A program made the translations under genes and the position numbers. From positions 124,001 to 188,000 of the forward strand of contig NZ_KZ319289.1 of assembly GCF_002744755.1 (NCBI RefSeq): a stretch of 64,000 nt of DNA, written 5' to 3'. Below the pieces are notes generated by a model, which did not search any database, was not told the DNA's origin, and was given only the letters and a program-made list of their open reading frames with translations. Numbering within the stretch: the first letter of the stretch is position 1; each line of letters starts with the position of its first letter. This stretch comes from Leeuwenhoekiella nanhaiensis. GTDB lineage: Bacteria > Bacteroidota > Bacteroidia > Flavobacteriales > Flavobacteriaceae. Shown here in pieces: positions 41,376 through 45,072 of the stretch.

Positions 41376-44300
41376 ATGATGAACTACGATTTTAACGCGA
41401 TAGAGAAAAAATGGCAACAGTTTTGGAAAGAACACAAAACTTTTGAAGCCCAAAACAACAGCGATAAGCCCAAATATTATGTACTGGATATGTTTCCCTA
41501 TCCATCGGGGGCAGGTCTGCACGTGGGGCACCCGCTGGGATATATTGCCAGTGATATTTATGCGCGTTACAAGCGTCATCAGGGTTTTAATGTGCTGCAT
41601 CCGCAGGGGTATGACTCGTTTGGGCTTCCTGCTGAGCAGTATGCGATTCAAACCGGACAACACCCGGCAATCACTACCGAAACCAATATTGCCCGTTACC
41701 GCGAGCAACTCGATAAAATAGGCTTTTCGTTTGACTGGAGCCGGGAGGTACGCACCTCAAACCCGGAATACTATAAGTGGACGCAATGGATTTTTATTCA
41801 GCTTTTTGAAAGCTGGTATAACAACGACACCAACAAAGCCGAACACATCGATACGCTGATCGCCAGGTTTGAAGCCGATGGTAATGCTTCGGTTAATGCG
41901 GTTTGTGATGATGATGTTGAGGTGTTTAGCGCCGAGGATTGGAATACTGCTTCCGCGAAAGCGAAACAGGAAATCTTATTAAAATACCGTCTTACTTACC
42001 TTGCTGAGACCGAAGTGAACTGGTGTCCGGCATTGGGGACGGTTTTGGCAAACGACGAGATCGTTAACGGCGTTTCCGAACGTGGCGGGCATCCCGTCGT
42101 GCGCAAGAAAATGACACAGTGGAGTATGCGCATCAGCGCCTATGCCCAGCGTTTACTAGACGGTTTGCAGGACATAGATTGGCCCCAGCCGCTTAAAGAT
42201 TCACAAACCAACTGGATTGGCCGTTCAAAAGGAGCTTCTGTAGAATTCAGAATCCTCCCCCCTGCCCCCTCCCAAGGAGGGGGGGTAAGCCACGCCGGTT
42301 TTATGACCGGAAAGCCCGAATTGATCCCGATTCTTTTAGAACGCGCTCAGGAAATGCGTGATAAACCTACAAAAGCCGAGGCTTTATTGTGGAGCAAACT
42401 TCGTGGTAAAAAAACCGGATTTAAATTTAGACAGCAACATCCAATTGATCAATATATTGTTGACTTTGTTTGTCTTTCGGCTCAACTTATTATAGAGGTA
42501 GATGGGGATGTGCACCAATATCAAATGAATAAAGATGCAGAACGTCAATTGTTACTGGAACAGAAAAAAGGCTTTAAAGTTCTGAGATTCTCTAATGATG
42601 AAGTGTTGAACAATGTTGAAAAGGTTGTTGAAGCGATAACGGTTGAAATTGAGCGGCGTGAGAAAGTCCTCCCCCTGGGGGAGGATTTAGGAGGGGAGCG
42701 TATTTCTGTATTCACCACCCGCCCCGATACGATTTTTGGAGTGACCTTTATGACCCTGGCGCCTGAATTAGATCTTGTAAAGGAAATCACCACGCCTGAG
42801 CAAAAAGCTGAGGTGGATGCCTATATCGAAGCTACTGCCAAGCGGAGTGAGCGCGAGCGTATGGCCGATGTAAAAACCATTTCGGGAGCTTTTACCGGGG
42901 CGTATGCTGAGCATCCGTTTACAAAAGAGCCTATCCCAATCTGGATTGGCGATTATGTTTTGGCAGGCTACGGTACAGGTGCGGTGATGGCAGTGCCTTG
43001 CGGCGATCAGCGTGACTGGGATTTTGCGAAGCATTTTAACATTCCGATTAAAAATATATTTGAAGGCGTTGATATCAGTGAGCAGGCTTACCCCGAAAAG
43101 GACGCAACTCCGCTTAAAGATTCTGACTTCTTAAACGGGCTTTCGTACAAGGAAGCGCTTCCCAAAGCGATTGAGGAGCTTGAAAAATTGGGTGCCGGTA
43201 AAGGCAAAGTCAATTACCGTTTGCGCGACGCGGTCTTTAGCCGTCAGCGCTACTGGGGCGAACCTTTCCCGGTCTATTATGTAGACGGAATGCCTCAAAT
43301 GATTGATGCTGCACATTTACCGATTCATCTGCCGGAAGTAGAAAAATATTTACCCACCGAAGAAGGTGAACCGCCATTAGGTCGTGCCGATGTTTGGGCC
43401 TGGGATACCAATCAAAATAAGGTGGTGAGCAATGACAAAATAGATCACCAGACGGTTTTTCCTTTAGAATTGAATACGATGCCGGGTTGGGCCGGAAGCA
43501 GCTGGTATTTCTTCAGATATATGGAGAAAGCCCTGCGCGATGAGGCTTTTGCCTCAAAAGAAGCGATGGACTACTGGCAAAATGTGGACCTCTATATTGG
43601 CGGTAGCGAGCACGCTACCGGGCACTTATTGTACAGCCGTTTTTGGGTGAAATTCCTTAAAGACCGCGGGTATGCCCCGGTTGAAGAACCCTTTAAAAAG
43701 CTGATCAATCAGGGGATGATTTTGGGGGAAAGTGCTTTTGTGTTTAAAGCTTATTTCGAATATGAATATGAGCATGACGGAAATCCTATCGAGGGACTTT
43801 TGGAATATGTTAAGAGTAATCCCGTCTTTATTTCTAATCAACAATATTCAGATTTAAAGAGCAATTCTAATTACTCTGATTTTTTTAATGAGTTGAATGA
43901 AAAATTTAAGCTTAAAGTAAAAGATAAATTTGGTGAAGAAATAAGTGGTGAATTTAATTTCCGTCAAATTCAGAAAAGTCATGTTGATGTCTCGTTACTT
44001 AAAGGAACTACTAATGAATTAGATTTAGAAGCTTTCTTAAAGGATAACAGATATAGTGAGTTTAAAGAGTCATATTTCATTCTCGAAAACGGTGATATTT
44101 TTGAATTCGGTGAGTTTGAGGTTAGTCAAGAGAAAAATGATATTTTTTTAGTTAGCCGCGAAGTCGAAAAAATGTCCAAATCCAAATACAACGTGGTTAA
44201 TCCCGATGATATTTGTGAGGAGTACGGCGCCGATACTTTGCGTATGTACGAGATGTTTTTAGGTCCGTTAGAGCAGGCAAAACCCTGGAATACTGCAGGG

Positions 44301-44867
44301 ATCACGGGTGTACACAACTTCCTGAAGAAACTCTGGAAGCTGTACCATCAGGTAGATAAAGCCGGGAATTTAGGGGACTTTGAAGTTTCAGACGAGCCGG
44401 CTTCTAAAGAGGCTATGAAAACCCTGCACAAAACCATCAAGAAAGTACAGGAAGATATTGAGAACTTCAGTTTCAATACTTCGGTATCAACCTTTATGAT
44501 TGCGGTCAATGAACTTTCAGCTTTAAAATGCAACAACCGCGAGGTACTGGAGCCATTGGCTGTATTGATTTCGCCCTACGCGCCACACATCGCAGAAGAA
44601 TTGTGGAGTTTGCTGGGTCACGAAGGTTCGATAGCAACCGCGGCGTTTCCGAAGTTTGATCAAAAGCATTTGGTAGAAAGCAGTAAGGAATACCCCATCT
44701 CCTTTAACGGAAAGATGCGTTTTACGATGGAGCTTCCGCTTGATCTTTCTAAAGAAGAAATCGAAAAAGCTGTACGTGCACACGAGAAAACGCAGGAGTA
44801 TCTGGGTGGCCGCGAACCTAAAAAGGTCATCGTTGTGCCCGGTAAGATCGTGAATTTTGTAGGCTAA
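41376..44867 (+). CDS. leuS: Leucyl-tRNA synthetase carrying two internal insertions
   Basis: LeuRS charges tRNA-Leu. The class I motifs are H49-V-G-H52 (GLHVGHPLGY) and K932-MSKS-936; the editing (CP1) domain resumes at FTTRPDTIFGVTFM, and the C-terminal anticodon-binding part is normal. The length of 1163 residues is far above the family. Residues about 292-441 are a DUF559 nuclease domain inserted in a loop just before FTTRPDT (see 42251-42699). Residues about 790-926, before KMSKS, form an AT-rich, charged expansion. The frame is intact throughout, so the protein is probably still functional. Confidence 0.95.
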   Translation: MMNYDFNAIEKKWQQFWKEHKTFEAQNNSDKPKYYVLDMFPYPSGAGLHVGHPLGYIASDIYARYKRHQGFNVLHPQGYDSFGLPAEQYAIQTGQHPAITTETNIARYREQLDKIGFSFDWSREVRTSNPEYYKWTQWIFIQLFESWYNNDTNKAEHIDTLIARFEADGNASVNAVCDDDVEVFSAEDWNTASAKAKQEILLKYRLTYLAETEVNWCPALGTVLANDEIVNGVSERGGHPVVRKKMTQWSMRISAYAQRLLDGLQDIDWPQPLKDSQTNWIGRSKGASVEFRILPPAPSQGGGVSHAGFMTGKPELIPILLERAQEMRDKPTKAEALLWSKLRGKKTGFKFRQQHPIDQYIVDFVCLSAQLIIEVDGDVHQYQMNKDAERQLLLEQKKGFKVLRFSNDEVLNNVEKVVEAITVEIERREKVLPLGEDLGGERISVFTTRPDTIFGVTFMTLAPELDLVKEITTPEQKAEVDAYIEATAKRSERERMADVKTISGAFTGAYAEHPFTKEPIPIWIGDYVLAGYGTGAVMAVPCGDQRDWDFAKHFNIPIKNIFEGVDISEQAYPEKDATPLKDSDFLNGLSYKEALPKAIEELEKLGAGKGKVNYRLRDAVFSRQRYWGEPFPVYYVDGMPQMIDAAHLPIHLPEVEKYLPTEEGEPPLGRADVWAWDTNQNKVVSNDKIDHQTVFPLELNTMPGWAGSSWYFFRYMEKALRDEAFASKEAMDYWQNVDLYIGGSEHATGHLLYSRFWVKFLKDRGYAPVEEPFKKLINQGMILGESAFVFKAYFEYEYEHDGNPIEGLLEYVKSNPVFISNQQYSDLKSNSNYSDFFNELNEKFKLKVKDKFGEEISGEFNFRQIQKSHVDVSLLKGTTNELDLEAFLKDNRYSEFKESYFILENGDIFEFGEFEVSQEKNDIFLVSREVEKMSKSKYNVVNPDDICEEYGADTLRMYEMFLGPLEQAKPWNTAGITGVHNFLKKLWKLYHQVDKAGNLGDFEVSDEPASKEAMKTLHKTIKKVQEDIENFSFNTSVSTFMIAVNELSALKCNNREVLEPLAVLISPYAPHIAEELWSLLGHEGSIATAAFPKFDQKHLVESSKEYPISFNGKMRFTMELPLDLSKEEIEKAVRAHEKTQEYLGGREPKKVIVVPGKIVNFVG
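42252..42285. repeat. Left terminal hairpin of the leuS insert
   Basis: C-rich CCTCCCCCCTG followed by the palindrome CCCCCTCCC-AA-GGAGGGGGGG. Read against the reverse complement of the right end it has the same order: C-run, spacer, palindrome. Confidence 0.7.
42667..42697. repeat. Right terminal hairpin of the leuS insert
   Basis: The palindrome TCCTCCCCC-TGGGGGAGGA is followed by TTTAGGAGGGG. The reverse complement mirrors the left end. The hairpin is translated as VLPLGEDLGGE. Confidence 0.7.
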
Positions 44868-44928
44868 GGCCCTTAACCCGCAATGGGGAATTGGAAATAG
44901 GAGGTGGTTGTTAGAAGAAGTACAAATT

Positions 44929-45072
44929 GTCACTTCGAGTAAATGAAAACCAGCCTCAGCTGGATTTCATTTGTATCGAGAAGTCTGCTTAGTTAGGATG
45001 TTTCTAGTTCACCGGGCTTCTCGATACAATTTTTTCGACCTTGTGGCTCTCAAAAATTACTCGAAGCGACAG
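44929..45072. repeat. Large nested palindrome (dispersed-repeat type) downstream of leuS
   Basis: Three nested inverted repeats: outer arms TGTCACTTCGAGTAA (44929-44943) and TTACTCGAAGCGACA (45057-45071), one mismatch; an inner pair TGTATCGAGAAG (44972-44983) with CTTCTCGATACA (45017-45028); and a stem AAATGAAA-CCAGC/GCTGG-TTTCATTT (44941-44972). It could fold into a branched RNA or DNA cruciform. The surrounding 282-base gap holds no gene. Confidence 0.75.

Follow-up and report, generated by a model that had tools for sequence, protein, structure and literature searches.

A hairpin-bounded, Vsr-like nuclease domain in frame in leucyl-tRNA synthetase of Leeuwenhoekiella: a candidate homing-like element without splicing

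Related systems and the leuS locus

Known elements that carry a nuclease into essential coding regions usually conceal themselves by splicing, as inteins and introns do. Inteins with a homing endonuclease place that nuclease in frame in conserved proteins, occur as empty and filled alleles, and mostly form one lineage per site. I-Bth0305I (PDB 3r3p), an EDxHD/Vsr-like homing endonuclease named a 'mobile intron protein' in its PDB entry, shows patchy occupancy of the same site and exchange between species, and the accessible part of its description ascribes to it an extended DNA-binding region and a target site almost 60 base pairs long (PMC3943268). Rickettsia palindromic elements (RPEs), which are 105-146 bp long, bring palindromic DNA in frame into many conserved protein genes, with a neutral effect in one tested case, and the available portion of their description makes no mention of an endonuclease (PMC2229807). 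REP/RAYT REPtrons hold a small tyrosine transposase gene between palindromic repeats, and stand-alone DUF559 genes (PDB 3hrl) carry the domain under their own start and stop codons. As far as the accessible text of these sources goes, none of the EDxHD enzymes, inteins, RPEs or REPtrons joins nuclease cargo with a permanent, non-spliced life in frame (PMC3943268, PMC2229807, PMC3733652). A description of in-frame DUF559 insertions was not found in the open-access literature searched.

The element described here resembles each of these systems in part. It is like I-Bth0305I in catalytic fold, sequence, patchy occupancy and exchange between species, but no intron was found with it, and it comprises the catalytic domain only and lies in frame in its host protein. 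The intein-like features (i.e., frame, alleles and site fidelity) come without a splicing domain, with hairpin-derived Pro/Gly linkers, and with a host linker that appears replaced and not precisely split. Palindromic DNA lies in frame in protein genes, as in RPEs, but here with a conserved nuclease domain and a length of about 440 bp. Compared with REPtrons, which some copies recall in their doubled ends, DUF559 takes the place of the transposase and copies sit in frame inside genes; the stand-alone DUF559 genes, with the same domain, mostly form a separate clade. The best explanation, to which we assign a probability of about two in three, is a compact selfish element, that is, a Vsr/EDxHD-like nuclease with an N-terminal aromatic-x-Thr extension that is hairpin-bounded, non-splicing and homing-like.

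The window (the whole analysed stretch, 64,000 nucleotides of Leeuwenhoekiella nanhaiensis contig NZ_KZ319289.1) contains the host gene leuS at 41376..44867 on the + strand, identified by ORF, Pfam and NCBIfam leuS_bact; it was the only leuS found, a 180-aa editing-domain probe returning one match genome-wide. The leuS frame is open throughout its 1163 codons. DUF559 (PF04480; 42339..42650, +) forms residues 322-425 of LeuRS (E 6.4e-34, profile positions 5-108 of 109, 116.6 bits against a curated cut-off of 20.6) with LeuRS parts on both sides, and the protein with its insert is still classed as leuS_bact (E 9.5e-271). The first-pass annotation had read a complete DUF559 domain in frame in the CP1 editing domain at 42251-42699, and both the reading and the coordinates hold: congeners whose site is empty or has a different insert place the element at about 42254-42696 (+).

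At its 5' end (42254..42289, +), a C-rich head, CCTCCCCCC, and a hairpin (stem 42265-42272/42276-42283) are translated as the linker peptide LPPAPSQGGGV. The aromatic-x-Thr motif, here FMT (42300..42308, +), lies ahead of DUF559, within which E-x-D-G-x-x-H (42495..42515, +) is the putative catalytic core. The 3' end (42667..42696, +) comprises a hairpin (stem 42667-42674/42678-42685) and a G-rich tail, GGAGGGG, read as VLPLGEDLGGE. The LeuRS editing-domain segment, which served as the empty-site probe, then restarts at ISVFTTRPDTIFG (42702..43241, +). Further downstream, LeuRS before KMSKS (INQGMI to EKMSKS, window about 43700-44175) is hypervariable, with 79 to 154 residues; by eye this segment is hardly alignable among 12 genus genomes, whose editing-domain segments are 85-100% identical to the window copy.

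The absence of splicing motifs was also borne out. The window LeuRS had no intein self-splicing domain among its Pfam and NCBIfam matches (zero intein families), and there was no group I or group II intron RNA, with zero Rfam matches at the gathering threshold within the window; the frame, moreover, runs through, and the intein and intron readings were rejected. An assembly artefact is ruled out by filled frames in many genomes, in some of them on one contig (G035, G137, G143, G226 and G231). The insert is thus probably not spliced, judging from sequence, and LeuRS would carry the nuclease as an additional domain. Because translation itself requires the sense orientation and an open frame, neither is evidence for a targeting rule.

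Nuclease domain and hairpin ends

Alignment of 24 in-frame copies, drawn from 31, revealed 18 invariant columns. These include E, D, G and H of the E-x-D-G-x-x-H core and the Thr of the aromatic-x-Thr motif, each in 24/24 copies. The idea of a free nuclease translated from an internal start was rejected, as a Met before the invariant Thr was counted by hand in only 10 of the 24. The modelled DUF559 domain (mean pLDDT 85.9) matched 3hrl (E 1.5e-6) and I-Bth0305I (3r3p; E 1e-4, probability 1.00) in Foldseek, and Vsr weakly (0.11); profile searches gave 3hrl at E 1.7e-29 and 3r3p at E 2.2e-7. By sequence and fold alike, the domain is therefore homologous to the EDxHD catalytic domain of 3r3p, and the insert is a putative nuclease. 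An extended DNA-binding region beside the catalytic domain is absent, the insert consisting of DUF559, the short N-terminal motif and the linkers. A model of CP1 with the insert, of moderate quality (mean pLDDT 69.9, pTM 0.56), keeps the helix and strand order of the nuclease between two LeuRS strands, and the hairpin-derived peptides (model residues 53-65 and 186-196) fall below pLDDT 50. The translated hairpins probably act as flexible Pro/Gly linkers, as far as this model goes.

Taken alone, the hairpins of this leuS copy are weak against shuffles. The 5' hairpin had a z of -0.42, and 61 of 200 dinucleotide shuffles of the same 40 bases folded as well; the 3' hairpin had a z of -1.71 (10 of 200). 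Across the 72 internal in-frame copies, hairpins exceed chance, with mean stem scores of 19.6 and 18.6 compared with 12.7 and 12.5 in shuffles; p was <=0.05 against 60 shuffles each for 46/72 5' ends, 41/72 3' ends, and both ends in 31/72. Significant hairpins at both ends were likewise found in 29 of 55 stand-alone DUF559 copies. A stricter test used 672 background windows from the same loci and required scores above the 95th percentile at both ends. It was passed by 71% of 24 leuS, 50% of 8 recG, 71% of 14 hemD and 50% of 54 stand-alone copies, and by 0% of 9 metH copies.

The first-pass annotation had described the end hairpins as inverted. Hairpins at both ends stand, and inversion holds on average over 73 copies, where the inverted pairing score of a copy's own ends was 25.9 versus 18.6 for other pairs (0/2000 permutations). 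It does not hold for recG copies alone (1984/2000) or hemD copies alone (534/2000), which lacked the inverted excess, and the same-strand score of own end pairs was likewise raised (21.6 versus 16.3; 0/2000). The further idea that the same end hairpins recur at other DUF559 insertions stood in architecture. A C-rich head and hairpin, roughly inverted at the opposite end, delimits numerous DUF559 copies that lie in frame elsewhere, in other genes, but the leuS 3' hairpin has no dispersed copies in its own genome (one match, its own, at <=2 mismatches). A profile search of that genome found four DUF559 matches, namely leuS, hemD and two stand-alone copies, and by eye the three besides leuS also sit among C-rich/G-rich palindromes. 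In its hemD (L001, 748-1893), DUF559 is fused in frame to the HemD N-terminus, and an extra, nuclease-free hairpin lies in frame inside HemD. Doubled, REPIN-like hairpin pairs surround DUF559 on both sides, in frame, in leuS of G012 (L015), and two doubled, REPIN-like hairpins flank a stand-alone copy (L192).

Hairpin ends also raise the possibility of a passive passenger, in which REP-type transposase, or recombination after natural transformation, scatters hairpin-ended sequences that survive in permissive loops, with the nuclease taking no part in their spread. Both REP-like repeats and nuclease-free palindromes lying in frame are indeed known, according to the accessible parts of two reports (PMC3733652, PMC2229807). 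We nevertheless consider this unlikely. A RAYT partner was sought and rejected, since the one Y1_Tnp match in the genome is located elsewhere and lacks C-rich/G-rich hairpins of this kind in the portion inspected, and both the invariance of the core in 24/24 copies and the occupation of unrelated housekeeping genes by one nuclease group would be unexpected of cargo that is merely carried along.

Occupancy and exchange of the leuS site

The leuS insert was present in 8 of 13 genus genomes, the window's own included (G000, G001, G004, G007, G008, G010, G011 and G012), and the site was empty in five (G002, G003, G005, G006 and G009). At least 18 of 299 sampled family genomes carried it. The first-pass annotation had named an insert at the same place in all relatives as a refutation, and this was not observed; the alignment with close relatives that had been proposed thus supplied both empty sites and junctions. 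Filled and empty states are scattered over a LeuRS tree built from 53 genomes, a set enriched for filled ones (24, against 29 empty). They need 15 changes; shuffling gave a mean of 17.8, and a count this low arose in 64 of 500 shuffles.

The empty site of G003 reads GASVQFKIKDSEETISVFTTRP. In the other four empty genomes this loop is occupied, in frame, by short sequences that look like repeats: G005, G006 and G009 have a GAATTC type, and G002 has GTCACTTCGAGCGCAGTCGAGAAGTC. The resulting peptides are QNSEF (GAATTC-rich) and TSSAVEKSYEV in the genus and IASEAKQS elsewhere in the family; these sequences may be dispersed repeats. A sequence of the same look, TGTCACTTCGAG...TCGAGAAGTC, lies 3' of leuS at window 44920-44995. 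That other short in-frame sequences use the same LeuRS loop, in genus and family, is what passive scattering into permissive loops would predict.

Comparison of filled sites revealed exchange between species. Between G001 and G008, 5 of the element's 443 bases differ, with synonymous changes at 3 of 101 insert sites versus 95 of 261 (36%) in the leuS core (Fisher 9e-13), and the nearest mismatches outside the element are 4 bases to the left and 19 bases to the right. The same deficit of synonymous change in the insert relative to the core was observed for G000/G001 (7e-10) and G000/G008 (8e-10), more weakly for G010/G007 (0.004), and without significance for G000/G004 (0.09). The G000/G010 pair has a core that is 85.6% identical and an insert that is 55% identical. 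From the near-identical insert in diverged leuS, its sharp limits and the G000/G010 mismatch, it follows that a bounded unit moved or was replaced between species at one leuS site.

These pairs bear directly on a view in which the insertions are old, vertically inherited, often lost and fast diverging, with no continuing mobility. The low synonymous divergence of the insert in G001/G008, G000/G001 and G000/G008 contradicts it for Leeuwenhoekiella leuS, and G000/G010 is mismatched in the opposite direction. Elsewhere it fares better: outside the genus, where synonymous sites are near saturation, insert and core divergence were equal in most of the leuS pairs listed (a few had a deficit in the insert and a few an excess at p<0.05), the metH inserts and the recG inserts each occupy one side of a branch in the domain tree, and a single origin of the leuS inserts is compatible with the AU test (p-AU 0.54). 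In at least four hemD and at least two metH pairs, insert divergence was no different from that of the host gene, and the hemD copies, from 4 pairs among those listed, look vertically inherited. As a general account we regard it as highly improbable.

Purifying selection acts on the insert, with dN/dS of 0.07-0.10 in 6 of 7 within-type pairs; the value of 0.28 for G001/G008 comes from 3 synonymous and 3 nonsynonymous changes. Such constraint is again unexpected for a passenger whose nuclease does nothing for its spread. No clear co-conversion of flanking leuS was detected, and inspection by eye revealed no target-site duplication at either leuS or metH, where 18-33 bases of host linker appear, also by eye, replaced and not split. 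Both absences speak against textbook homing and textbook transposition alike, and they are compatible with passive scattering.

Other host genes, lineages and a homing-like life

DUF559 domains fused inside other genes, for which the first-pass annotation had suggested a search, were found in about 20 host gene families across Bacteroidota. Ten have host domains on both sides: LeuRS, ValRS (L125), IleRS, methionine synthase, RecG, RecB-like helicases, IcmF, HsdR, Eco57I-type and type ISP. Four have a host domain on one side only (HsdM, M23 peptidase and two DNA methylases), and six are terminal fusions (HemD, HemF, HisD, HisF, N-formylglutamate amidohydrolase and PurQ-like), the HemD fusion being N-terminal, or C-terminal in L235. 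LeuRS is hit at two sites, CP1 and a position before MPGWAGSS (L205; L211 and L213 by sequence). Left out of this count were L228, which is partly masked, and L229, presumably HsdS-like from a motif. In the phylum sample, 162 of 395 genomes matched the DUF559 profile at 1e-10, stand-alone copies included, and in at least 43 a match fell within a frame no shorter than 370 aa (counted by hand among the matches listed). A contig scan of genomes with the window copy as query gave only 6 loci. Within the genus, metH was filled in 1 of 13 genomes; metH hairpin ends lie at the junctions where most empty genes have a linker of about 11 residues, e.g., PPPASEKAKSN. One metH (L046) carries two DUF559 inserts at different sites, which are close together in the tree. 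Another DUF559 group occurs in restriction-modification and methylase genes (L193, L219, L221, L222, L224, L225, L229, L231 and L234; HsdM, Eco57I type, type ISP and others), where copies often come after Leu-Pro-Glu or Leu-Pro-Asp.

A viral source was rejected on low identities, the best of 77 IMG/VR loci reaching 46% over nearly the whole domain (51% in one short segment) and all of 3 phage and 39 plasmid records staying below 60%.

In a tree of 113 domains, 45 copies in leuS, metH, recG, ileS, valS and hisD fall on one side of a branch (SH-aLRT 83), apart from a clade of 42 of the 54 stand-alone copies (97); the 14 hemD copies form a clade with one stand-alone copy (99). The corresponding housekeeping group in a 155-row tree has 67 rows (SH-aLRT 87) and adds second-site leuS, icmF, recB-like, PurQ-like and M23 hosts. 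In it, 65 of 67 rows are in frame, the others being L188, at a contig edge, and the stand-alone L192. That copies inside housekeeping genes are one lineage is supported but not firm (SH-aLRT 83-87). The hemD, hisF, hemF, N-formylglutamate amidohydrolase and restriction-modification copies lie outside this group, which implies that life in frame either had more than one origin or was lost. Host labels within the group need 12 changes for 11 hosts, close to the minimum possible of 10, and lineages are therefore mostly site-specific. The leuS copies of G010 and G007 fall with metH copies (SH-aLRT 87 and 85). The AU test gave no support for separate origins of leuS inserts: besides the single clade of all leuS inserts, a single clade for both Leeuwenhoekiella leuS types was not rejected (p-AU 0.22). 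Deep forks are unsure because the alignments have few columns (106-120). The first-pass proposal, a small mobile element entering permissive loops without breaking the frame, is supported, with movement between species demonstrated for leuS; free insertion at any loop gives way to site-specialised lineages with rare jumps.

The range of hosts also allows us to weigh a domesticated domain, a nuclease kept for host use in anti-phage defence, repair or LeuRS regulation. Purifying selection would fit such a role, as would DUF559 in the restriction-modification proteins HsdR, HsdM, Eco57I type and type ISP. We find it very unlikely, given hosts as functionally unrelated as aminoacyl-tRNA synthetases, methionine synthase, RecG and IcmF, the scattered presence and interspecies exchange of the insert, and the two copies in one metH.

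Under the selfish, homing-like explanation, the element occupies a permissive loop of an essential protein, in frame, and its nuclease, tethered or proteolytically freed, would cut those alleles of its own site that are empty or have a different insert. Repair of the cut allele would copy the element in, amounting to homing without splicing. The fold, the conservation, the site fidelity and the exchange together suggest homing by the element's own nuclease. The essential host gene may shield the element, since the host could survive only a loss that is exact and in frame. The hairpins may take part in DNA movement, perhaps by helping rare jumps to new genes; this is suggested by their mostly inverted layout, by exchange limits that coincide with them, and by the doubled ends of some copies. 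Whether these elements deserve a new mobile-element class of their own, as 'spliceless inteins', is in our view an even call. Such a class would comprise hairpin-bounded, Vsr-like nucleases living as permanent, translated, in-frame domains of essential Bacteroidota proteins, homing site-specifically between species and occasionally jumping to new genes, with hairpins that double as signals in DNA and linkers in protein.

In about 20 gene families, DUF559 elements appear to persist without splicing because their hosts tolerate the additional domain. If this is true, it would provide a route for new domains into old proteins and could explain the oversized LeuRS, MetH and RecG of Bacteroidota. 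DUF559, still of 'unknown function' in Pfam, would gain a proposed job, and the insertions would supply natural data on the positions at which aminoacyl-tRNA synthetases tolerate large insertions.
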